Positions 32,014-50,467 of a DNA stretch of 64,000 bases are shown in pieces. How positions within the stretch are numbered: position 1 is the first letter of the stretch; every line of letters begins with the position of its first letter. The translations under genes and the position numbers were made by a program. Origin of the DNA: Bryobacteraceae bacterium (lineage in GTDB: Bacteria; Acidobacteriota; Terriglobia; Bryobacterales; Bryobacteraceae); contig JAHCHE010000017.1 in the NCBI GenBank assembly GCA_026129905.1, positions 124,001-188,000 on the forward strand. The letters run 5' to 3'. The notes under the pieces were generated by a model, which was not told where the DNA came from, did not search any database, and was given only the letters and a program-made list of their open reading frames with translations.

Positions 32014-33225
32014 ATGACCCGGAGAACATGGCTGCAAACAGCGTTGATCGGAAGCGGGGGGCTGCTCCAGAAAGCGAATGCCGCGCTTTCGAAGATGAAA
32101 ATCACGCGCATCCGCTTCTACCACTCGCCGATCACCCGCCCGATTTTCAACCAGAGTTTCCATATCGTCACGGTTGAGACGGACCAGGGCATCACGGGCA
32201 TCGGCGAAGGCGGAACCAAGGACACCATCGAACAATGCGCCGCCCTTCTCATCGGCGAGGACCCGACGCGCATCGAACATTTGTGGCAACTGATGTACCG
32301 CGGCTATTTTTATCCGCCCGGACGCGAGAAGATTCACGCGCAGGGGGCGCTCGACCTTGCCCTTTGGGACATCAAAGGGAAGGCGCTCGGCGTGCCGGTG
32401 TACGATCTGATCGGTGGGCTGAGCCGCGATCACATCGAATGTTACTCTACCGGGTTTCCCCGAAAAGGGAGCCTGAAAGAGACCGCGCGCGCGTGCATCG
32501 AGGCGGGGTTCCGCGCGTTTCGCACGTCGGTGGCCGATCCCGGTAAGGACCAGCCGTTCGTGGCCATCCAGATGGTGCGCGAAACGCACCGCCGCTGCCA
32601 GGAAATTCGCGAGGGCGTCGGACCGGGCGGCGACTGGGCGATCGACTACCACACGCGCCTCGATCTGCCGGACGCCATCCGGCTGAGCACTCTCATCGAA
32701 CCGCTGGAGCCCATCTTCGTCGAGGATCTGGTCCGCTCCGAGAACCCCGGCGTCTACCGCCAGGTGCGGCCTCAAGTGAAAGTGCCGATCGCCGTCGGCG
32801 AACATTTTGCCGACCGCTGGGAGTTCAACGAACTGGTAGAGCAGCGGCTGATCGATTACTCGCGCGTTACCATCCCCAATTGCGGCGGCCTCACCGAAAT
32901 GCTGAAGATCGCGGCTATGTGCGAAACCCACTACGTGGGAATGATCCCGCACTTCACCGGCCCGCTGGCCGAGGCGGCGCTGGTGCACGCCTGCGGCGTC
33001 TTCCCCGGCCCGGCGCTCATGGAGATGACCGGCGACGGAACCCAGAAAATCCGGTACCTGCCCGAAGTCTACGATTTCAAGAGCGGGAAGATGTGGCCGA
33101 ACCGCCGCCCCGGACTGGGCGTGACCTTCGACGCCTCTCAGACGCAACTGGTGGCGGAGATCACCGAGAAATTGCAGCCCATTCCGCTGTTCCGCCGCTC
33201 GGACGGCTCCATCACCAACTGGTAA
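32014..33225 (+). CDS. Enolase-superfamily dehydratase, Tat leader (galactonate dehydratase-like)
   Basis: The 403-residue product starts with a twin-arginine-like leader (TRRTWLQTALIGSG). The capping domain follows, then a barrel with metal ligands in WAIDYHTRLD (Asp), PIFVEDL (Glu) and VGEHFADRW (Glu), and a late histidine in GMIPHFTGP. This D-E-E/His set resembles D-galactonate or mannonate dehydratases. The KxK base on the second strand is replaced (FRAFRTSV). TAAGAT lies 8 bases before the ATG. It pairs with the next gene, 4 bases downstream. Confidence 0.85.
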   Translation: MTRRTWLQTALIGSGGLLQKANAALSKMKITRIRFYHSPITRPIFNQSFHIVTVETDQGITGIGEGGTKDTIEQCAALLIGEDPTRIEHLWQLMYRGYFYPPGREKIHAQGALDLALWDIKGKALGVPVYDLIGGLSRDHIECYSTGFPRKGSLKETARACIEAGFRAFRTSVADPGKDQPFVAIQMVRETHRRCQEIREGVGPGGDWAIDYHTRLDLPDAIRLSTLIEPLEPIFVEDLVRSENPGVYRQVRPQVKVPIAVGEHFADRWEFNELVEQRLIDYSRVTIPNCGGLTEMLKIAAMCETHYVGMIPHFTGPLAEAALVHACGVFPGPALMEMTGDGTQKIRYLPEVYDFKSGKMWPNRRPGLGVTFDASQTQLVAEITEKLQPIPLFRRSDGSITNW

Positions 33226-33229
33226 CGTC

Positions 33230-34408
33230 ATGGATCGCAGAAGTTGGCTCACGGGCGCCGCGTCCGGACTGCTGTTGCCATGGACATCAGCGGCGCAGGC
33301 CCCGCGCCCCGTTGTCGGCGGCCTCGAGACGTTTCGGGTCAGGGTAAACCGCCGCGGCGAATGGGTGCTGTTTCGCCTGACCGCCAGTTCCGGCCTCACC
33401 GGCATCGGCGACGCCTCGCACGGCGGAGACGACGAACTGGCGATGTCGCTGGGCCGCGGGTTCGCCGAGGCGATGAAAGGCCGCGGTATCTTTGACGTCG
33501 AATGGCTGCGCCGGACGGCGTTGCCCGAGGTAGAACGAAGCAAGCGGCCCGCCGCCGTCGCTCTGGGCGGTATCGAGCAGTGCCTGTGGGACCTGCAAGG
33601 AAAAGCGCTCGGCCTGCCGGTTTACAAGCTCTTCGGCGGCATGCTGCATCCGCGGATTCGCAACTACGCGAACATCAACCGCTCAACGGAGGAACGCAGC
33701 CCCGCCGGCTTTGCGGCGATGGCGAGGCAAGCGGTGAGCGCCGGCTTCGATGCAGTCAAGCTCGCGCCGTTTGACGACATGCCGCGCCTGGATGCCGACC
33801 CGAAGCTCCTGTCGGAGTTCACGGAACTCGGCGTCGAACGTACTCGGGCGGTTCGCGAAGCGATCGGCCCGGAGAAGGACCTGCTGATCGATGTCCATAG
33901 TCGCATGGACCTGCCGCGGGGGCTCGAACTCGCGCAACGTCTCGCGACGCTGAACCTCTACTGGCTGGAGGAGGTCTGCCGCGGGCTGCCGGAACTGGCG
34001 GCCATCAACAAGGCAGCGCCCATGCCGACCGCGGGCGGCGAATCGCTGTTCGGAACGAAAGGTTTTTACGAGTACATCAAAGCCGGCGCGGTGGACATTG
34101 TCATGCCCGACATCAAGTACTGCGGCGGGTTGCTGGAGATGAAGAAAATCGCCGCGATGGCGGAAGGGGCGGGGCTGCCAGCCTCGCCGCACGGGCCGGC
34201 CAGTCCCGTGGGCAACATGGCCGCCGCGCACGTCTGCGCGACGCTGCCGAATTTTCAGATTCTGGAGTATGCCTTTGGAGAAGTCCCCTGGCGAGCGGAC
34301 CTCGTGGAACCTCCGGAAACCCTCGACCGGGGCTGGCTCGGCGTCCCGGAGCGGCCGGGTTTCGGCATCGCGCTGAACGAGGAGACAATCCGCCGCCACG
34401 CGGTTTAG
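33230..34408 (+). CDS. Second enolase-superfamily enzyme, Tat leader
   Basis: The 392-residue product has a Tat-like leader (DRRSWLTGAASG). The superfamily features are FDAVKLAPFDDM (base lysine), LIDVHSRMD, YWLEEVCR and AGGESLFG as metal ligands, and PASPHGPASPVG as the late histidine. It differs from its neighbour in carrying the lysine and an extended loop PDPKLLSEF. The pair, both predicted to be exported, probably act on acid sugars outside the cytoplasm. Reaction is not assigned. Confidence 0.85.
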   Translation: MDRRSWLTGAASGLLLPWTSAAQAPRPVVGGLETFRVRVNRRGEWVLFRLTASSGLTGIGDASHGGDDELAMSLGRGFAEAMKGRGIFDVEWLRRTALPEVERSKRPAAVALGGIEQCLWDLQGKALGLPVYKLFGGMLHPRIRNYANINRSTEERSPAGFAAMARQAVSAGFDAVKLAPFDDMPRLDADPKLLSEFTELGVERTRAVREAIGPEKDLLIDVHSRMDLPRGLELAQRLATLNLYWLEEVCRGLPELAAINKAAPMPTAGGESLFGTKGFYEYIKAGAVDIVMPDIKYCGGLLEMKKIAAMAEGAGLPASPHGPASPVGNMAAAHVCATLPNFQILEYAFGEVPWRADLVEPPETLDRGWLGVPERPGFGIALNEETIRRHAV

Positions 34409-34452: not shown

Positions 34453-35292
34453 GTGGCCAATAATTTCGTCTTGGTGATCTTCGATAGCTGCCGCTATGAT
34501 TCATTCCGCCGCGCCAACCCTAAGACGATCGCGAAGCTCGGCAAAGTCGAGAAGAGGTGGTCCTACGCCACCTGGACGGCGCCCTCGCACTACAACTTCC
34601 TGATCGGCTTGATGCCGCACCGGAGCCCCAAGCACGTCTATGCCTCGGAGTATTACACCAAGGAGTTTTTCAAGTTCAACGAACGCCTGGGCGCCGATGG
34701 CATCGAGTTCAAGTCCCTTGTGCCGCGCCTCTATCTGCCGCACTTTCTCAAGGAGAAGATGGGCTACCGGACGCACGCCATGGTCTCGCTGCCGGTGTTG
34801 AATCCCAAGACCGTGTTGAACCAGGGTTTCGACGACTACACGCTGATGGACAAGCACAACGACATGCGCGCCATGGTGAAGCGCATGACGTTCACCAAGG
34901 ACCAGCCGAGCTTTTACCTGCTGAACGTCGGCGAGACGCACTATCCTTACGCGCTGCCGGATGAGCCGAAGGACGAATGGCCCCGCATCAGCGGCGTCCA
35001 CGGCGTCTTCAAGCACCTGGACGACCACGTTGTCGGGGGCAAGCTCGTCCAGCAGAAAGAGAAGTTTTTCGACCAGAAGAAACTGAAGGCGCTCCGTGGC
35101 CGCCAGGTCGAAGCCGTGAAATACCTGGACACCGTTGTGGAGGAGTTATTCGACCTGGTTCCGAAGAACACGTACATCACCATTACCTCCGACCACGGCG
35201 AACTGTTCGGCGAGGAAGGCTACTTCGGCCACGGCCCGATTCTGCACGACAAGGTTCTGGAAGTGCCGTTTGTGGAGGGGAAACTCCGGTGA
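34453..35292 (+). CDS. AP-superfamily (sulfatase-like) hydrolase, no signal peptide
   Basis: The 279-residue product starts at a GTG with GAGGAG upstream and opens directly with the metal motif VIFDSCRYDS. The nucleophile region is WTAPSHYNFLIG, in which Thr takes the place of the formylglycine Cys/Ser of true sulfatases. ITITSDHGELFGEEGYFGHG carries the second metal set. It lacks leader and membrane segments, so it should be cytoplasmic, and it is shorter than most family members (400-600). Its stop overlaps the next start (GTGA). It is the first gene of a seven-gene run. Confidence 0.82.
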   Translation: MANNFVLVIFDSCRYDSFRRANPKTIAKLGKVEKRWSYATWTAPSHYNFLIGLMPHRSPKHVYASEYYTKEFFKFNERLGADGIEFKSLVPRLYLPHFLKEKMGYRTHAMVSLPVLNPKTVLNQGFDDYTLMDKHNDMRAMVKRMTFTKDQPSFYLLNVGETHYPYALPDEPKDEWPRISGVHGVFKHLDDHVVGGKLVQQKEKFFDQKKLKALRGRQVEAVKYLDTVVEELFDLVPKNTYITITSDHGELFGEEGYFGHGPILHDKVLEVPFVEGKLR

Positions 35293-37400
35293 GCGGGAAA
35301 ACGAAAGTCTGCCCCTGGTGGGCGGTGTTGCTGCTGGCTCTCGCGGTCCTGATCGAGCCGCGCGGCGCCGGCGAGCTGCAACTGGCCTACATCGGACCCG
35401 GCGCCGGGTTCGCCTTCCTCGGATCGTTTCTGACGCTGCTTTGGGCCTTATTGGTGAGCGTCGGTACGCTGCTGACCTGGCCCATTCGCATGGCCGTCAA
35501 ATCGTTCCGCCGCGGCAGGAGCCTGAAGAACGCCCGCGTGAAGAAGGTAATCTTCCTCGGCCTCGACGGCTTCGATCCCGGCCTGGCCGAGCGGTTCATG
35601 GCCGAAGGTAGACTCCCGAATCTCTCCCGCTTGCGCGAACAAGGTTCGTACCGAAGATTGCGCACCACCTTCCCGTCTCTTTCGCCCGTGGCCTGGTCCA
35701 CCTTCGCGACCGGCGTCAACCCGGCCAAGCACAATATTTTCGACTTCCTGAATCGCAACCTGAAGAATTACCTTCCCGAACTGTCGTCCTCGCGCGTCAA
35801 CAAGCCGCTGCGCGTCTGGAAGATCGGCAAGTACGCCATCCCGCTGAGCCGCTCGAGCGTCGACATGCGCCGCAAGAGCATGCCCTTCTGGAAGATTCTC
35901 GGCGAGCACCAGGTGGATTCTACGATCCTGCGCGTGCCGATCACTTTCCCTCCGGAGAAGTTCAACGGGCGGTTGCTGTCGGCAATGTCGACGCCCGATC
36001 TGCGCGGCACGCAGGGGAGTTTCTCGTTCTTCTCGACGCGCCAGGAACAGGTGAGCTATGAGCAGGGCAGCCGCTATCCCCTCCATCGAAACGGCAAGTC
36101 GATCGCCGGCGTCCTGGAGGGACCCGACCACCCGCTGATTCCGGGCGCGGGCGTCTTGAAGATCCCGTTCGCCGTCAAGCTGAACGGTTCGCGCGACGGT
36201 GGCGAACTCGAGATCCAGGATGAAACGCTGCCGCTGCGGTTGGGCGAGTACACGCCGTGGGTGAACGTGAAATTCAGCGCGGGCATCGGCGTGAAGGCGC
36301 ACGGTATCTGCCGTTTTCTGCTGACGCAAATCGAGCCCGACGTCAATCTCTACGCCACGCCCATCAACATCGATCCGGAAAAACCCGCGCTGCCTATTTC
36401 GCATCCGGCGTACTACTCCGCCTATCTGGCCAAGCTGCTCGGAACCTTCGCGACCGTAGGAATGGCCGAGGACACGTGGGCGCTGAACGAAGGCGCCATC
36501 GACGACGACGCATTCCTCGAGCAGGCGTATGCGATCCACCAGGAACGCGAGGCGATGTTCTTCAGCGCGCTCGACCGCCTGCGGCACGGCGTGGCCGCGT
36601 GCGTCTTCGATTCGAGCGACCGCATCCAGCACATGTTCTACCGCTACCTGGAGAACCGCGCGCAGGGCAAGCACCAGGAGACCATCCAGGAAATGTACGC
36701 GCGCATGGACGCCATGGTCGGCCGCGCTCTGAAGTATGTCGATAAGGACACCGTCTTGTTCGTGCTGTCCGACCACGGCTTCGGATCGTTCCGCCGCGGC
36801 GTCAATCTGAACACCTGGCTGGTCGAGAACGGCTACCTGGCGCTGAAGGACGGCGCGCGGACTGCGGGTCCCTACTTCAAGGGCGTGGACTGGTCCCGCA
36901 CGAGGGCTTACACCCTCGGCTTGGCCGGCCTCTATCTCAACATCAAGGGCCGCGAGGCCGAAGGCGTCGTTAAGCCGGGCGAGGAAGCCGAGGCGCTCAA
37001 AGCGGAGTTGATTCAGAAACTCAGCGGGTTAGTGGATCCGGAGAGCGGCGAGGTGGCAATCCAGCGCGTTTACGCCACGAACCGCCTGTATCGCGGGCCG
37101 TATCTGGGCGAAGCGCCCGACTTTATTGTAGGTTTCAGCAACGGCTACCGCGTGTCGTGGGACGCCGCCCAGGGTAAGATAACAACCAGCGTGTTCGAGG
37201 ACAATGCCAAGGCCTGGAGCGGGGATCATAGCATGGATCCCGTTCTCGTGCCCGGCGTGTTGTTCTCCAATCGTAAGATCGACGCCGAGGATCCGGGCCT
37301 GGAAGACATGGCCCCGACCACTCTGGCGCTATTTGGAATTGAGAAGCCCGCGCACATGGAAGGCAAACCGATTTTCACCTTTTCCGGCGCGCCGGCGTAA
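35289..37400 (+). CDS. Membrane-anchored type I phosphodiesterase/nucleotide pyrophosphatase family protein
   Basis: The 703-residue product starts at the GTG overlapping the previous stop. Hydrophobic segments at about 8-24 and 33-66 anchor it. The AP-superfamily core follows: KVIFLGLDGFDPGLAERFM (metal), FPSLSPVAWSTFATGVNP (nucleophile region), DSSDRIQHMFYRY and VLFVLSDHGFGSF (metal). The C-terminus has WSGDHSMDPVLVPG. Such enzymes cleave phosphodiesters or transfer phospho-groups on lipids or glycans. AAGGAGG after the stop serves the next small gene. Substrate is unknown. Confidence 0.85.
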   Translation: MSGKTKVCPWWAVLLLALAVLIEPRGAGELQLAYIGPGAGFAFLGSFLTLLWALLVSVGTLLTWPIRMAVKSFRRGRSLKNARVKKVIFLGLDGFDPGLAERFMAEGRLPNLSRLREQGSYRRLRTTFPSLSPVAWSTFATGVNPAKHNIFDFLNRNLKNYLPELSSSRVNKPLRVWKIGKYAIPLSRSSVDMRRKSMPFWKILGEHQVDSTILRVPITFPPEKFNGRLLSAMSTPDLRGTQGSFSFFSTRQEQVSYEQGSRYPLHRNGKSIAGVLEGPDHPLIPGAGVLKIPFAVKLNGSRDGGELEIQDETLPLRLGEYTPWVNVKFSAGIGVKAHGICRFLLTQIEPDVNLYATPINIDPEKPALPISHPAYYSAYLAKLLGTFATVGMAEDTWALNEGAIDDDAFLEQAYAIHQEREAMFFSALDRLRHGVAACVFDSSDRIQHMFYRYLENRAQGKHQETIQEMYARMDAMVGRALKYVDKDTVLFVLSDHGFGSFRRGVNLNTWLVENGYLALKDGARTAGPYFKGVDWSRTRAYTLGLAGLYLNIKGREAEGVVKPGEEAEALKAELIQKLSGLVDPESGEVAIQRVYATNRLYRGPYLGEAPDFIVGFSNGYRVSWDAAQGKITTSVFEDNAKAWSGDHSMDPVLVPGVLFSNRKIDAEDPGLEDMAPTTLALFGIEKPAHMEGKPIFTFSGAPA

Positions 37401-37409
37401 GGAGGAACC

Positions 37410-37598
37410 ATTTCCAAACCAATCAAGCTCAGTAAGGAACTCTACGAGAGAGTGAAACGCTGCTCCGACGCGGCCGGTTACTCTGGGCCGCAGGAGTTTG
37501 TGGAACACGTCCTCGAAAAAGAGTTGGCCAAGCTCGAAGACGCCCAATCGGACGAGGAGATTGTAAGCAAGCTTAAAGGACTGGGATATCTCGAGTAG
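37410..37598 (+). CDS. 62-residue RHH-like small protein with probable ATT start
   Basis: This frame has no ATG, GTG or TTG before its conserved-looking N-terminus, but an ATT at 37410 stands 4 bases after GGAGG. It lies in the 200-base gap between two clear operon genes. The product reads SKPIKLSKELYERVKRCSDA, then a second helix around GPQEFVEHVLEKELAKLED, then a tail ending KLKGLGYLE. Strand-helix-helix order suggests a ribbon-helix-helix fold, as in small operon regulators. Its C-terminal tail resembles that of the sulfatase two genes downstream. Function is unknown. Confidence 0.65.
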   Translation: MSKPIKLSKELYERVKRCSDAAGYSGPQEFVEHVLEKELAKLEDAQSDEEIVSKLKGLGYLE

Positions 37599-37602
37599 TA
37601 AC

Positions 37603-38361
37603 ATGATTCCCCAGTGGCTTAGCCTGGTGATCGTGAGCGGCGTAAGCGGCGTGGCGCTGTTATGGCTGTTCAGTAAGACCTCGAATCCGGTCAAGATTAA
37701 AAGAACCAAGAAGAAGTTACAGGCGCACTTACTCGAGATGCGCCTCTACGCCGACGACCCCGGCGTCATTCTTCGCGCGCAGAAGAACCTGATGGTTCAA
37801 AACCTGCGGTATTTCGCGCTGATGTTGAAGCCGGCGCTGGCAGCCACCGTCCCGATGATCGCGCTACTGTTGATCCTGGACGGCTATTACGGCAAGGCGC
37901 CGCTGAAGATCGGCGAACCGGCGATCGTGACCGTCCAAATGGAGGACGCGGCCCGCGTTAACGCCGCTCCGCCGAAATTGGAAGCCCCGCCGGCGATTGT
38001 CATCGAGACCCCCGCCGTCCGCGCCGTCGGCGAACGCCAGGCAAGTTGGCGAATCCGGCCTGCGGCGGAATTCCGCGGCGATCTTCGCGTGGTGGCGAAC
38101 GGGGTCTCGGCCACCAAGTCCATCGCCGCCGGCGATGGCAGACGGTTCGTATCCAGCCGCCGGGTCCACTCGATCCCGGCGCTGCTTCTGTATCCGGGTG
38201 AAAGGCCGCTTGGCGCCGGGGGAATCGAATGGATCGAGTTGGAGTACCCTTCGGCTTCCGTCCGAATGTTCGGGATCGAAACGCACTGGCTGGTGTGGTT
38301 CTGTATTTTCTCGCTCGCCACGGCGCTGGTGTTCAAAAGCAGGTTCAAGGTCGTCATTTAG
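37603..38361 (+). CDS. Membrane protein resembling the Oxa1/EMC3 (DUF106) superfamily
   Basis: The 252-residue product has a first membrane helix (about 5-23), then a basic, strongly helical segment with SNPVKIKRTKKKLQAHLLEM and ILRAQKNLMVQNLRY, then a second membrane segment (about 71-90). This helix - cytosolic hairpin - helix order recalls the DUF106/EMC3/YidC insertase superfamily. Residues 95-225 form an outer beta-rich domain, unlike classic members, and a last helix lies at about 228-247. It is packed between the small RHH gene and the large sulfatase. Membership is an inference from topology. Confidence 0.55.
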   Translation: MIPQWLSLVIVSGVSGVALLWLFSKTSNPVKIKRTKKKLQAHLLEMRLYADDPGVILRAQKNLMVQNLRYFALMLKPALAATVPMIALLLILDGYYGKAPLKIGEPAIVTVQMEDAARVNAAPPKLEAPPAIVIETPAVRAVGERQASWRIRPAAEFRGDLRVVANGVSATKSIAAGDGRRFVSSRRVHSIPALLLYPGERPLGAGGIEWIELEYPSASVRMFGIETHWLVWFCIFSLATALVFKSRFKVVI

Positions 38362-40404
38362 ATGCCGGCACTCCGAGGGGCGCAGTTTTGGGCCGCCTAC
38401 GGCGTTGTCGAACTGTTCTTCCTCGCCGTGTGGCCATGGATTGTCGCGCCTGAACGCCCGCACGAACGGTTTCACGTCGGCTTCTCGATTCTGATCGTCG
38501 GCCTCTACGCCGCCGTCGGCGCCGCTGTAACCGCCCTCGCCGCGTTCGGCATCCGGGGAGCGCTCTCGGTCAGCGCGGCCTTGCGGCGCGCGGATCCCAG
38601 CGAGTTGTACCGGGCTGTGGCCGCATCGACCTTAGCGTGGGCATTCGGCATCAACATGGCGCTGGCGTTCCAGGCGCCGGCGATGCGCGCGGCGGCGCTG
38701 GCGATGCCGGTCCTGCTAACGACCACGCTTATCGTGGGCTATCTTGTCCGCCCCCTCGCGTGGGTAATCGCGTTTGCGCGTCCGTGGACGCTCGGCATCG
38801 TCCTGGTGGGAACCACATGGCTTGCCTCACACCATGCTGGACGTCTGATCACTGTCGCGGCGCTGGCGCTGGCGCTGACCGGCGCGGTCGCTTTCCGGCG
38901 GCGAATCGAGGCGTGGAGTCCGAGGCTGAAGGAGGCCGCAGCCGCGGCGGCCTTCGTCCTGCTGCTGGGAGCCGGAGCGGCGATCGATCCGTCCCCTCCG
39001 ATTGGAGCGTTCCGTTCCGCTCCGTCGGAGGCCGACGGACCGAACGTGCTCCTGTTAACGCTGGACACGGTTCGCGCGGACCACCTGTCTGTATACGGCT
39101 ACGCGAGGGACACCAGCCCCAACCTGAACGAGTTCGCCGCGGACGCGACGCTCTACCGCGACGCCGTTTCGGCGGGCGACATGACCTTGACCGGCCATGC
39201 CTCGATCTTCACCGGAATGTATGCGGCCAGGCACGGCGCATTTTGCAGCCGCGAGGTCCCGGCCGGCTGGCCGCTCGACGACCGCTTCACAACCCTCGCC
39301 GAAACCCTAAAGGAGAATGGATACCGGACAGCCGCCGTGGTCGCCAACAACGGCTATCTTGGCCGGCGCCACAATCTCCATCAGGGGTTCGATTTCTACG
39401 ACTCCACGGGTCCGGCGCTGTACCTGGAGGGCCCTCCACGATACTGGCTCCGCGGAGCGGTGGGGGCCCTCGGTTTCCACCTTCTGCCGTACTCGAAACT
39501 CATGCGCTGGACGCGTGATGCCGCCGAAATCAACCGCCGGGTTTTCCGATTGCTGGACGTTGCGTCCGAGACGCCGTTTTTTCTGTTCGTTAACTACATG
39601 GATGCGCACCGGCCCTACCTGTCGCCTCCGCCGTTCAATGCGAAATTCAGGGGCAGGAACCCGAGGTTCGGCGCCGCCGCGTACGAGTCGCTGCTGACGG
39701 AAATCATGTCCGACAAACGGAGCATCGCGGAGGAGGAACGTGAGCATCTGACCTCGCAGTACGACGGCGCCATTGCCTACCTCGACCACGAACTCGGCGG
39801 CCTGTTCGCGCGCCTGAAACAGCTCGGCCTCTATGATCGGACCTTGATCGTCGTCACCTCGGATCACGGCGAAGCGTTCGGCGACAAGAACCTGCTCGAG
39901 CATGGCAGTTCCGTCTACCAGGACCAGGTGGGCGTTCCACTCATCATCCGTTATCCCGGCCAGGACGGCGCCCGCGTCGTGGAAGGCCCCGCCAGCGGCG
40001 TGGACATCCTGCCCACTGTGCTGGACGCGCTTGGCATCGCCCCGCCGGATGGCATCCAGGGTCGCAGTCTTCAACGCGAATCTGGCGCGGTCCCGGTGCT
40101 GGCCGAATCGTACGCGCCCGGGCTCGTAATGGGTTTCCACCGGCGCTTTCGCCTGCCCGAGCGCGCCGTTTTTCTCGGTCCGTGGAAACTGATCGAATCG
40201 CGAAAGGGCCGCCGCGAGTTGTACAATCTCGCCGGCGACCCCCGCGAGGCCCGCGACCTTTACGGAACCGAGGCGCCGCTTCAGGAAGAAATGGAACAGA
40301 TGCTGGTGGAGCTGAGCGCGGCCGGGTCGAGGGCCGGCTCCGACGCCCCAAAGCTGGACCCGGCGACCCTGCGGCGGCTGCGTGGCCTCGGCTACCTGAA
40401 GTAA
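38362..40404 (+). CDS. Multi-spanning membrane sulfatase/phosphotransferase-like protein
   Basis: The 680-residue product begins directly at the preceding stop. About six hydrophobic segments fill residues 1-205. The catalytic domain starts with VLLLTLDTVRADHLSVYGY (metal), then GDMTLTGHASIFTGMY, where Thr takes the nucleophile place, and later VTSDHGEAFGDKNLLEHG. This resembles LtaS or phosphoethanolamine transferase layouts as much as true arylsulfatases; no C/S-x-P-x-R formylglycine site is present. The last residues are RRLRGLGYLK. Confidence 0.85.
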   Translation: MPALRGAQFWAAYGVVELFFLAVWPWIVAPERPHERFHVGFSILIVGLYAAVGAAVTALAAFGIRGALSVSAALRRADPSELYRAVAASTLAWAFGINMALAFQAPAMRAAALAMPVLLTTTLIVGYLVRPLAWVIAFARPWTLGIVLVGTTWLASHHAGRLITVAALALALTGAVAFRRRIEAWSPRLKEAAAAAAFVLLLGAGAAIDPSPPIGAFRSAPSEADGPNVLLLTLDTVRADHLSVYGYARDTSPNLNEFAADATLYRDAVSAGDMTLTGHASIFTGMYAARHGAFCSREVPAGWPLDDRFTTLAETLKENGYRTAAVVANNGYLGRRHNLHQGFDFYDSTGPALYLEGPPRYWLRGAVGALGFHLLPYSKLMRWTRDAAEINRRVFRLLDVASETPFFLFVNYMDAHRPYLSPPPFNAKFRGRNPRFGAAAYESLLTEIMSDKRSIAEEEREHLTSQYDGAIAYLDHELGGLFARLKQLGLYDRTLIVVTSDHGEAFGDKNLLEHGSSVYQDQVGVPLIIRYPGQDGARVVEGPASGVDILPTVLDALGIAPPDGIQGRSLQRESGAVPVLAESYAPGLVMGFHRRFRLPERAVFLGPWKLIESRKGRRELYNLAGDPREARDLYGTEAPLQEEMEQMLVELSAAGSRAGSDAPKLDPATLRRLRGLGYLK

Positions 40405-41178
40405 GTGAAACTCCAGGAGACGGTCGAAAGAGCCATGGCGGGCCGGCAAGGCGCGGTGGTGGCGCTCGACGGCCGCTCCGGCCGGACGTTGCTCTGTCAC
40501 GACGAGCGGCGCGCCGCCACGCGCACTGCAAGGCCGGGCTCCACGGTGAAGCCGTTCACGCTGGCGGCCCTTCTGGAAGCGAACGTGGTTACCCCGAAAA
40601 CCACGCTCGTCTGTGAAAGCCCGCTGCGGGTCGCTGGACGCCGCCTTCCCTGTGCGCACCCGCGCGACAGCGTTCCTTTGGACCCCGTGACGGCGCTGGC
40701 TTTCTCCTGCAATTTCTTTTTCGCCACGATGGCGCGGCTGCTCCAACCCTCGCGCCTCGTCCGCGCCTTCGAGCGAGCCGGACTCGGCGCCGCGCCCGGC
40801 ATCGTCCGGTTGGCCCAGAGCGGCGATCAACTACAGCTCCAGGCGCTGGGGGAAAGCGGCATCGAAACGACGCCGTTGGCGTTGGCCGCGGCGTACCGGC
40901 AGTTGTCGCGGTGGTCCGAGGAGGCGCCGTCGATCCGCGAAGGGCTTCTCGGCGCGGTCGAGTACGGCACAGGCCAGTTGGCCCGGCGCGGCAAACGGCG
41001 GATCGCCGGCAAGACCGGAACCGCAACCAGCCGCAACGGAGCGTGGACGCACGGATGGTTCGCCGGCTTCTCTCCACCCGCCTCGCCCGAGATCGTGGTG
41101 GTGGTTTTTCTCGAAAGAGGTCAGGGTGGCTTGGACGCCGCCCCCATCGCGGGCGCTGTATTCGAAGCGTTCACATGA
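40405..41178 (+). CDS. Stand-alone penicillin-binding transpeptidase domain
   Basis: The 257-residue product (GTG start right after the sulfatase stop) holds all three active-site motifs in order: SxxK in RPGSTVKPF (Ser46, Lys49), SxN in AFSCNFFF (Ser101) and KTG in AGKTGTATS (Lys203). It is a bare transpeptidase domain, without leader, membrane anchor or dimerisation domain, where class B PBPs have 550-700 residues. Either it is exported by an unusual route, or it works on a cytoplasmic ligand, or a leader is missed. It overlaps the SpoIID gene (ATGA). Confidence 0.82.
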   Translation: MKLQETVERAMAGRQGAVVALDGRSGRTLLCHDERRAATRTARPGSTVKPFTLAALLEANVVTPKTTLVCESPLRVAGRRLPCAHPRDSVPLDPVTALAFSCNFFFATMARLLQPSRLVRAFERAGLGAAPGIVRLAQSGDQLQLQALGESGIETTPLALAAAYRQLSRWSEEAPSIREGLLGAVEYGTGQLARRGKRRIAGKTGTATSRNGAWTHGWFAGFSPPASPEIVVVVFLERGQGGLDAAPIAGAVFEAFT

Positions 41179-42542
41179 GGCTCGCCTTCGTATGGCTCGC
41201 CTTCGGCGCGGCGCTGGCGGCGCAGACGGAGATAACGGTCCGTGTGCAGAACCGCACGCTGAAAATGCCGCTCGAAGAGTACGTCGCGGGAGTACTCGCC
41301 GGCGAAGTGAACATCTTCCGTTCCGAGGAGGCGCTGAAGGCGGCCGCCGTGGTGGCGCGCACCTACGCCCTCCGCTTCCGGGGCCGGCACAAAGCGGAAG
41401 GCTTCGACTTCTGCGAAACAACGCGCTGCCAGGATCTGCGGCTGGACGCCGTTAATGCGCGGGTTACAAGAGCCGCCGAGGAGACCGAAGGCGAGTTGCT
41501 CTGGTATCAAGGGGCGCTCGTGGCGGCCTTCTACCACCGCCACTGCGGCGGACGGACCGAGGCCGCGAGCGAACTCTGGCCCGACATGGCCGCCCCATAC
41601 CTGCGGGTCCAGTCCGACACCTACTGCATCGCGCGCGGCCGCGACGAGTGGAGCGCCTCGATCTCCGCGCGGGATCTGCAACAGGCTTTGTCGCTCGATT
41701 GGCCCGTGGGATCGGTGGAGGTTCGCAGCCGGACCCATTCCGGCCGCGTGCGGCGCCTGCGCATCGACGGGCAGGACCTGACGGCGGACGCGTTGCACAT
41801 CGCGGTTGGCCGCGCCCTCGGCTGGCATTTGCTGAAAAGCGCGTCCTACGAGGTGTTCTCCCGGAGCGACAAGTTCTTGTTTCAGGGCTACGGCAGCGGC
41901 CACGGCGTCGGCCTCTGCCAGGCCGGCGCCGAGCAGCGGGGCGAGGATGGGCAGAACTACGCGCAGATTCTTTCTTTCTACTATCCGGGCACGGTGATCG
42001 GCATCAACGCCCGCGGTTTCCGCTGGCGTCTGCTTGGCGGCGAGCGCGTGGATGTCTTCAGCACGCGCGAAGCCGAGGAACGGGAACTGGTGGCCATTGC
42101 CGATCGAATGCTCGCGGAAGCCGAACGGCGCGCCGGATTCCGCTATGCCGGCCGCCCGAGATTACGCGTCTATCCAACTGTCGCCGCCTTCCGCGATGCC
42201 ACGGGTGAACCAGGGCAAGTCGCGGGTTCCACCGTGGGTTCCACCATTCGTCTGCAGCCCTCGCCGGCGCTCCGGTCGCTCGGAACGCTGGAATCCACCG
42301 TCCTGCACGAGATGCTGCACGTCGTGCTGGAATCGCGTGCGCATCCATCATTGCCGGAGTGGTTCAGGGAAGGGTTGACGCTGTACCTCGCCGAACCCGG
42401 CGGAAGCGCCGCCTCCAACGCGTACCGCCAATGGCGATCGCGCGTGGCGTCGCTGGTGTCCCGCCACGGCCGCGATACTGTTCTGCGCTGGCTAGGCGCG
42501 GGACTCCCGCCCGGCGTGACCGATGATAGCGGCCAGCGTTAG
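41175..42542 (+). CDS. SpoIID-domain protein fused to a gluzincin-like metallopeptidase
   Basis: The 455-residue product has a signal peptide (cleavage near ALAAQT). A SpoIID domain spans about 20-280, with the catalytic Glu in VAGVLAGEV (Glu44), HCGGRTEAASE, and GYGSGHGVGLCQAGAE. From about 290 a second domain carries HEMLH (378-382) and WFREGLTLYLAE with a third-ligand Glu, the pattern of MA-clan peptidases. SpoIID is a lytic transglycosylase on denuded glycan. The fusion suggests an enzyme that cuts both glycan and peptide or protein. It ends overlapping a convergent gene by 51 bases. Confidence 0.85.
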   Translation: MRLAFVWLAFGAALAAQTEITVRVQNRTLKMPLEEYVAGVLAGEVNIFRSEEALKAAAVVARTYALRFRGRHKAEGFDFCETTRCQDLRLDAVNARVTRAAEETEGELLWYQGALVAAFYHRHCGGRTEAASELWPDMAAPYLRVQSDTYCIARGRDEWSASISARDLQQALSLDWPVGSVEVRSRTHSGRVRRLRIDGQDLTADALHIAVGRALGWHLLKSASYEVFSRSDKFLFQGYGSGHGVGLCQAGAEQRGEDGQNYAQILSFYYPGTVIGINARGFRWRLLGGERVDVFSTREAEERELVAIADRMLAEAERRAGFRYAGRPRLRVYPTVAAFRDATGEPGQVAGSTVGSTIRLQPSPALRSLGTLESTVLHEMLHVVLESRAHPSLPEWFREGLTLYLAEPGGSAASNAYRQWRSRVASLVSRHGRDTVLRWLGAGLPPGVTDDSGQR

Positions 42543-43148
42543 CCAGGCCAGCGCCGCCAGCGCCGCGGCGATCGTGAACCGGACGACAATGCTTGCGCTT
42601 TGCGCCGTCAGCCCCGTGACCTCGGGAATCCACGTCAGCAGGAGTTTGGGAGCAACGACGCCCATCACGATCGCGACGGCGCCGGCGATCCAATAGCCGC
42701 TCCGGCTGAGCACGCGGCGGGCGCTTCCGGCGGGCAAAAGGCCGCCGGCCGCCTCACTCGCCAGCGGGAGCAGGAGCAAGGCAACCAGCGGTCCGGCCAG
42801 CCAGAGGGGCACGCGCGACTTCGAAGCGAGCCACGCAGTCCCATAGGCGACCGCGCCCAGCAGCACCGCCCACGGCAGAAAGCGCGGCAGCCTGCGCAGC
42901 GCCACCATCGCGTACGAAGCCCCCGGCTGCTGGAACGCCGCGAGGGTTGCTCCGTATAGCCACACGATGCCGAACGCAAGGCCAAGGAGGATGAGCGCCG
43001 ACCCGGTCAGCGCAAGCGCCGACCGTTCTGGAATGGAAAGCCAGGCGTAGAACAACAGGAGCGCCGCGGCGTTGCCCGCCAGCAGAACCGCGATCAGGAT
43101 CGGCCTCCGAAGCACGGCCGCCAGCGCGTTGCGAAGCGTCGTCAACAT
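42492..43148 (-). CDS. Small polytopic membrane protein of the A2M cassette
   Basis: From the ATG at 43148, which shares one base with the alpha-2-macroglobulin stop, the product has 218 residues and about six hydrophobic segments (for example AVLLAGNAAALLLFYAWL, LILLGLAFGIVWLYGATL). I do not recognise the family. It may be a partner of the macroglobulin in the inner membrane. Its last 51 bases overlap the end of the SpoIID gene on the other strand. Confidence 0.65.
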   Translation of the reverse strand: MLTTLRNALAAVLRRPILIAVLLAGNAAALLLFYAWLSIPERSALALTGSALILLGLAFGIVWLYGATLAAFQQPGASYAMVALRRLPRFLPWAVLLGAVAYGTAWLASKSRVPLWLAGPLVALLLLPLASEAAGGLLPAGSARRVLSRSGYWIAGAVAIVMGVVAPKLLLTWIPEVTGLTAQSASIVVRFTIAAALAALAWLTLAAIIGHAGRESRA

Positions 43149-49922: not shown

Positions 49923-50201
49923 GTGGCTTTCGAATGGGATGATTCGAGCAAAGCCGGGCTCAACTTCCGCAAGCACGGCGTCCGCATGCCCGAAGCAATC
50001 CCGGTTTTCGATGATCCCTATGCCATCACGATCACGGATGATGAATCCGATCCCGGTGAGCGGCGATTCGTCACTCTTGGCATCGGGGCGGTGGGCCGAT
50101 TGCTCGTTGTTGCGTACACGTGGCGAGGCGAGAACATTCGCATCATCTCAGCGCGGCCTGCCGAAGCCCATGAGCGTGAGCAGTACGAGGCAGAACGATG
50201 A
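49923..50201 (+). CDS. brnT: BrnT-family ribonuclease toxin
   Basis: The 92-residue product has FEWDDSSKAGLNFRKHGV, then FDDPYAITITDD, ERRFVTLGIG and VVAYTWRGENIRIISAR, the full BrnT pattern with its active-site His, Arg and Glu. The toxin cleaves RNA and is neutralised by BrnA, whose gene overlaps it as ATGA. The start is GTG, with no ribosome site, and the message is probably leaderless. Confidence 0.93.
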   Translation: MAFEWDDSSKAGLNFRKHGVRMPEAIPVFDDPYAITITDDESDPGERRFVTLGIGAVGRLLVVAYTWRGENIRIISARPAEAHEREQYEAER

Positions 50202-50467
50202 AGGACCGATACGATTTCAGCAAAGGCAAGCGAGGCCGGGTTGTTCAGCCCGAGCCTGAGCCCGAAGGCAAGGTCCGCATTACCATCCGGCTTGACCAAG
50301 ACATTGTGGACCGGTTTCTTCAACTGGCGGAGGCATCGGGCGGTGGGACCGGATACCAGACGCTCATCAACGCCGCGTTACGAGAATACCTTGACGGCAA
50401 AGCGCCACGGTTCGAAGAAACGCTGCGTCGGATCATTCGTGAAGAGTTGAATTCGAACGCAGCTTGA
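50198..50467 (+). CDS. brnA: BrnA-family antitoxin
   Basis: The 89-residue product has a disordered N-terminal toxin-binding segment and a ribbon-helix-helix domain (KVRITIRLDQDIVDRFLQLAE) followed by GYQTLINAALREYL. It should bind BrnT and repress the brnTA promoter. It starts in an ATGA overlap with brnT. The order toxin-antitoxin is normal for this family. Confidence 0.9.
   Translation: MKDRYDFSKGKRGRVVQPEPEPEGKVRITIRLDQDIVDRFLQLAEASGGGTGYQTLINAALREYLDGKAPRFEETLRRIIREELNSNAA

Follow-up and report, generated by a model that had tools for sequence, protein, structure and literature searches.

A putative bacterial DUF106/EMC3-branch Oxa1 protein encoded with a ribbon-helix-helix protein and AP-superfamily enzymes in a widespread gene cassette

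The Oxa1 superfamily is built on a core of three transmembrane (TM) helices, of which the first two flank a helical hairpin in the cytoplasm (PMC8675477), and its DUF106/EMC3/TMCO1 branch has been placed in archaea and the ER, with YidC in bacteria (PMC8675477, PMC8887752). Archaeal YidC and DUF106 share this three-TM core without the bacterial h4/h5 hairpin (PMC8675477, PMC8887752), and YidC carries a positively charged residue in its hydrophilic groove (PMC8920935). The other described groups closest to parts of the locus reported here are the NPP/phosphonoacetate hydrolase group (PF01663), the STM4013/SEN3800 family hydrolases, and the sat/cysC genes of PAPS synthesis. Literature searches for the combination of genes found at this locus returned no described system, as the first-pass annotation of this DNA had also stated.

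The window, which is the whole 64-kb stretch of Bryobacteraceae DNA that was analysed, contains at positions 34453–42542 of the + strand seven genes that overlap or are separated by gaps of 9 bp or less. The genes and the features within them are the following.

34453..35292, +, P1: 279 aa, predicted cytoplasmic AP-superfamily enzyme, distantly STM4013-like (Sulfatase PF00884, 1.5e-10)
35289..37400, +, P2 (PDEa): 703 aa, PF01663 NPP-type enzyme (Phosphodiest, 3.6e-36)
37400..37405, +, ribosome-binding site for the RHH gene (AGGAGG), seen in the sequence; it overlaps the stop codon of PDEa
37410..37598, +, P3 (RHH-LGY): 62-aa ribbon-helix-helix (RHH) family protein, ATT start, C-terminal ...KLKGLGYLE
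37572..37598, +, LGY tail of the RHH protein: LKGLGYLE, then stop (pattern match G000:C9:161572-161598)
37603..38361, +, P4: 252 aa, predicted TM1, cytoplasmic helical hairpin, TM2, Ig-like domain, TM3
37921..38283, +, Ig-like domain of P4, predicted extracytoplasmic: residues 107–227, between TM2 and TM3 (AF2 secondary structure)
38362..40404, +, P5: about seven predicted TM helices, followed by an extracytoplasmic sulfatase-fold AP enzyme (PF00884, 3.7e-52) with an LGY tail
40378..40404, +, LGY tail of P5: LRGLGYLK, then stop (pattern match G000:C9:164378-164404)
40405..41178, +, P6: lone penicillin-binding transpeptidase domain (PF00905, 2.1e-29), start at GTG 40405 or ATG 40435
41175..42542, +, P7: predicted secreted SpoIID/LytB protein with an HExxH peptidase-like domain (TIGR02669, 8.4e-55; HEMLH)

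The first-pass annotation had read these as one envelope operon of touching or overlapping genes, and all seven genes and their tight packing were found as described. P1 and PDEa overlap by 4 bp (GTGA), as do P6 and P7 (ATGA), P4/P5 and P5/P6 abut with zero gap, 4 bp lie between the RHH gene and P4, and the largest gap (9 bp) is that between PDEa and the RHH gene. The ATT start of the latter lies four bases after the AGGAGG, and since the RHH homologs use ATG or GTG at the aligned position it is presumably either a quirk of the window genome or a sequencing error. Two tandem enolase-superfamily-like genes on the same strand (32014–34408) end 44 bp 5′ of P1, such that the left border of the transcript is uncertain and the run may reach further upstream; promoter and terminator scans gave results at chance level only. 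At the right end P7 overlaps a convergent minus-strand gene (42492–43148) by 51 bp (42492–42542), behind which lies a 1537-aa gene that reads by eye as an alpha-2-macroglobulin family protein. A gene pair at 49923–50467 reads by eye as a BrnT/BrnA-like toxin-antitoxin module.

Comparisons with relatives define which of the seven genes belong together. P4 is present in 34 of 61 relatives, and the presence or absence of P4 and of PDE genes agrees in every one of the 61 (34 with, 27 without; Fisher 6e-18 when genomes are counted as independent despite kinship), with P1-PDEa-(PDEb)-RHH-P4 as the usual order; P1 adjoins PDEa in most relatives, at 69–78% identity. Among 197 genomes of the phylum, P4 occurs in 52 across many families and a strong RHH match (E < 1e-10) is found in the same 52, these P4/RHH and P4/PDE profiles being raw counts in which related genomes are not down-weighted. 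The co-occurrence of the PDE, the Oxa1-like protein and the RHH protein that the first-pass annotation proposed to look for is thus real. Scattering of the genes in relatives, which it had named as the observation that would speak against the set, does occur in one family, as on the single complete chromosome of G040 (PDEa at 5.80 Mb, PDEb at 0.48 Mb and RHH-P4 at 2.50 Mb), but the scattered genes still co-occur without exception and the scatter does not therefore refute the link between them. The RHH-P4 pair stays joined where the PDE genes have moved away. In genus g39 (family f3, L056–L065) RHH-P4 is positioned directly behind genes reading as the biotin synthesis genes bioB, bioF and bioD, with PDEa and PDEb located elsewhere.

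A genome-wide search with P4 alone as the query gave no match, and with the RHH alignment as the query 464 stretches were matched in a collection of 84,980 species. Among the best 80 of these 464 loci, the RHH gene has P4 within 1.5 kb in 77 and a PDE gene nearby in 61; 29 of the best 80 are labelled as outside the Acidobacteriota, and PDE, RHH and P4 are together in 25 of those 29. Among the labels are Planctomycetota, Myxococcota/Polyangia, Deltaproteobacteria, Gemmatimonadota, Latescibacterota and Eisenbacteria; a few (e.g. Kiloniellaceae, L100) look like binning errors. Runs of PDEa-PDEb-RHH-P4 turn up again in Planctomycetota, Gemmatimonadota and Latescibacterota, among others. The cassette is widespread in bacteria and, in the literature searched, apparently undescribed.

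The Oxa1-like assignment of P4, made initially by reading the sequence, is borne out by profile comparison. A profile built from 52 P4 homologs has one strong match in the PDB, the archaeal DUF106/Ylp1 protein MJ0480 (5c8j; E 1.7e-12, or 4.8e-8 with 25 sequences in the profile), and the match is collinear, covering TM1, the hairpin and TM2, with TM3 as a second, weak segment. The Pfam model EMC3_TMCO1 matches 12 of the 52 homologs (best 3.1e-6) and does not match the window P4 itself. In the AF2 model (pLDDT 94.5; helices 4–26, 29–48, 53–97 and 229–244) P4 has the three-TM core with a hairpin between the first two TM helices, and the hairpin is placed in the cytoplasm because of the basic residues 31–38. 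The Oxa1 link became visible through the profile search and not through Foldseek, where the top matches listed for the model are mostly to Ig-like folds (filamin and other Ig domains), none of them at E <= 0.001, and the helical core is short.

P4 departs from its nearest described relatives in several respects. Unlike MJ0480 it is predicted to carry a domain of about 120 residues with an Ig-like fold between TM2 and TM3; unlike the archaeal and ER members it is bacterial and occurs beside a normal YidC, a single canonical copy of which is encoded in addition to P4 in the window genome and in four others examined; and unlike its DUF106/EMC3 relatives it has an RHH-LGY protein as its partner and a link to PDEs, its own insertase role being putative. 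No conserved Arg or Lys lies within TM1–3 of P4, in contrast to the charged groove residue of YidC, and polar residues are kept in all three helices (Ser12 in 78%, Gln/His91 in 89% and Ser237 in 79%). Judged jointly, we consider it highly probable that P4 represents a bacterial member of the otherwise archaeal DUF106/EMC3 branch of the Oxa1 superfamily, on the strength of these sequence comparisons, and that the conserved core of the locus consists of PDEa, the RHH protein and P4, plus PDEb, a PDEa paralog located elsewhere in the window genome (contig 18, L302). P1 is usually kept together with P2-P3-P4 and, within this order, often occupies the upstream position in the cassette.

The first-pass annotation had recognised three AP-superfamily enzymes lacking a formylglycine motif, and the C/S-x-P-x-R motif is indeed absent from P1, P2 and P5, which have instead TAPSH (the nucleophile region of P1), LSPVAW and MTLTGHAS, respectively. 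P1 has no signal peptide and matches the STM4013 family model at 3.3e-18, but its 66.1 bits are well below the NCBIfam cut-off of 250, so that the likeness to these hydrolases is a distant one. PDEa scores 125.9 bits against PF01663 (cut-off 23) and its metal and nucleophile residues are intact; across 39 aligned homologs D93, D444, H448, D495, H496 and H647 are invariant and S132 nearly so. Its AF2 model (pLDDT 87) is closest to NPP, PhnA and related phosphatases, with a target-normalised TM of about 0.6 to Xac NPP and PhnA, and it shares with that group the fold, the metal ligands and the Ser/Thr nucleophile at a pairwise identity of about 12% to the solved enzymes. Unlike NPP and PhnA, it has a large additional beta domain that separates the nucleophile from the second metal half, and an N-terminal anchor that is predicted to leave the catalytic domain facing the cytoplasm.

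Topology was derived from the positive-inside rule and from signal peptides. The PDEa N terminus consists of an export-like helix, the motif YIGPGAGF, a TM helix and then a basic stretch, and because of this last arrangement the catalytic domain should face the cytoplasm. PDEb proteins begin with lipoprotein, Sec or TAT signals, and the two related enzymes, one inside and one exported, would therefore probably act on different faces of the membrane. Fusions of P4 with a P5-type AP enzyme exist in three genomes (L068, L069 and L107), and such an enzyme follows P4 in only 6 of 107 other cases. The L068 and L069 fusions continue behind the LGY motif into a further repeat-like region.

Membership of P3 in the ribbon-helix-helix family, proposed at the outset, is supported by sequence matches: RHH_1 matches 14 of 27 family members, weakly (best 0.0031), and the closest solved relatives are NikR and MazE-type regulators, with a NikR-type alignment. 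Residues G57, L58, G59 and Y60 are invariant in the 27-member alignment and lie in the C-terminal LGY tail. When the pattern L..LGY[LIV]x is searched in the window genome there are ten true C-terminal matches, namely the RHH protein and nine AP enzymes, and a classification of 60 LGY-tailed proteins drawn from several genomes gave 35 AP enzymes, 18 RHH proteins, five APS kinases and two others. The tail is thus common almost exclusively to AP-superfamily enzymes, RHH proteins of this kind and APS kinase (58/60). None of the solved AP enzyme structures searched for packing of such a tail covers it.

In the order-level sample LGY-tailed AP enzymes occur in 13 of the 34 genomes with P4 and in 0 of the 27 without it, as judged from coded tail peptides that were not each read as a gene. 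Phylum-wide they are also found in genomes without P4; a dependence of these enzymes on P4 was therefore dropped as an explanation, and only an enrichment of LGY tails with P4 remains. In genus g39 RHH-P4 is present with no other LGY tail on an AP enzyme.

The tail also points to sulfate activation. A second RHH-LGY family, RHH2, often adjoins genes for ATP sulfurylase and APS kinase, and in two genomes (L314 and L315) a single run comprises an inositol-monophosphatase-family gene, RHH2, Sat, an LGY-tailed APS kinase, a PF01663 enzyme, PDEa, PDEb, RHH and P4; related runs are present at L237/L238, L316 and L149. In relatives the cassette thus lies in one run with genes like those of PAPS synthesis (ATP sulfurylase, APS kinase and the inositol-monophosphatase-family gene), whereas no sat, cysC or inositol-monophosphatase-family gene was recognised in the 64-kb window, and no sulfotransferase was identified at the cassette loci. 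Elsewhere (L308–L310) RHH2, APS kinase and PF01663 enzymes form one run without P4. Beyond these genes, L308 encodes a PHP-domain protein and a radical SAM protein as well as a polysaccharide flippase and an LGY-tailed AP enzyme, and genes of the latter two kinds are found close by in loci other than L314 and L315. APS kinases with a fused C-terminal RHH-like domain and an LGY tail (L223, L224, L225 and L231) tie the RHH-LGY unit to enzymes and not only to gene control. Gene order and fusions in relatives link the wider network of RHH-LGY proteins to sulfate activation.

Composition, co-occurrence, homology and fusions were established directly, and the explanation of the whole that we favour, at a probability of about 0.5, is a conserved module in which P4 serves as insertase or scaffold and RHH-LGY as adaptor for the PDEs. 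P4 would be a dedicated membrane insertase or scaffold for the AP enzyme set, and RHH-LGY a dimeric adaptor in the cytoplasm that would dock on partner enzymes through its tail and might regulate by binding DNA as well. The AP enzymes may act on phosphodiester- or phosphosulfate-linked groups of envelope glycoconjugates, by hydrolysis or by transfer, a step that would stand beside PAPS synthesis in many species. As a mechanism, a membrane-bound system for phospho- or sulfo-linked envelope glycoconjugates is a tentative proposal. Counting against the favoured explanation are the conserved Ser and Gln/His residues of P4 in place of a charged groove residue, the LGY-tailed AP enzymes of genomes without P4, and the g39 genomes with RHH-P4 and no other tailed AP enzyme. 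In addition, one receptor cannot read both kinds of tail, because that of the RHH protein should be cytoplasmic and that of P5-type enzymes periplasmic. A bolder and rather improbable extension would make the LGY tail a portable docking code, such that RHH-LGY, LGY-tailed APS kinase and AP enzymes, and tail-less cytoplasmic PDEs using the tail in trans, assemble on the archaeal-type Oxa1 protein as a membrane-bound metabolon for phospho- or sulfo-modified envelope glycoconjugates; the bacterial DUF106 branch would then be devoted to a single set of enzymes and not to membrane protein insertion in general.

The seven-gene operon of the first-pass annotation, in which two peptidoglycan enzymes would act jointly with the AP enzymes and the insertase to build or trim a phospho-substituted polymer of the wall, draws on the tight packing of all seven genes in the window genome and on AP enzyme families that include phospho-group transferases. 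The two peptidoglycan-type assignments themselves hold up, P6 having the motifs STVK, SCN and KTGT (with no evident signal peptide) and P7 its SpoIID/LytB match and HEMLH. P7 is present in 14 of the 61 relatives, but in 5 of the 34 with P4 and in 9 of the 27 without, and in most P7-bearing relatives it adjoins a P6 homolog away from the cassette (L284–L296); the P4 neighbourhoods of relatives yielded no P6 or P7 match. As P7 thus occurs regardless of P4 and usually with a P6 homolog beside it, P6 and P7 are an independent pair, conserved as two genes in the order, that lies behind the cassette here by chance and is outside the conserved core. With P5 also adjacent or fused in only a few genomes, no direct support for a phospho-substituted wall polymer, and sulfate activation as the nearest pathway link in relatives, the operon as drawn is very unlikely, and for P6-P7 it is largely refuted. 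The earlier observation is partly confirmed: it is real, but its unit took in too many genes, as only P2-P3-P4, usually with P1, are conserved together.

Two further readings concern single components, and both seem unlikely to us, though clearly less so than the seven-gene operon. RHH folds usually bind DNA, and with regulators as its closest solved relatives the RHH protein could do no more than autoregulate transcription of the cassette, or could be a stray antitoxin, with a tail unrelated to those of AP enzymes; against this, the tail is invariant in 27/27 aligned members, the RHH-plus-tail unit is fused to APS kinase, and the RHH protein occurs in every P4-bearing genome of the phylum sample and remains joined to P4 when the PDEs have moved. 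A toxin-antitoxin role was rejected, as no toxin partner was seen and the unit has the APS kinase fusions. The other reading makes P4 an anchored scaffold or sensor and not an insertase, its Ig-like domain sensing or holding an envelope polymer and its hairpin signalling via the RHH protein. The position of that domain between TM2 and TM3, the lack of a charged groove residue and the obligate pairing with the RHH protein agree with this, whereas the whole-length collinearity with MJ0480, TM3 included, suggests that the insertase core has been kept.

A bacterial DUF106-branch member that occurs beside YidC and is tied to a defined enzyme set would be a new branch to study, and an Oxa1-type core may here serve one pathway. 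Its obligate pairing with a 62-residue RHH protein provides a handle on an uncharacterised envelope system in several phyla, and the C-terminal LGY tail, found in three protein families that are unrelated but occupy one neighbourhood, offers a second experimental handle.
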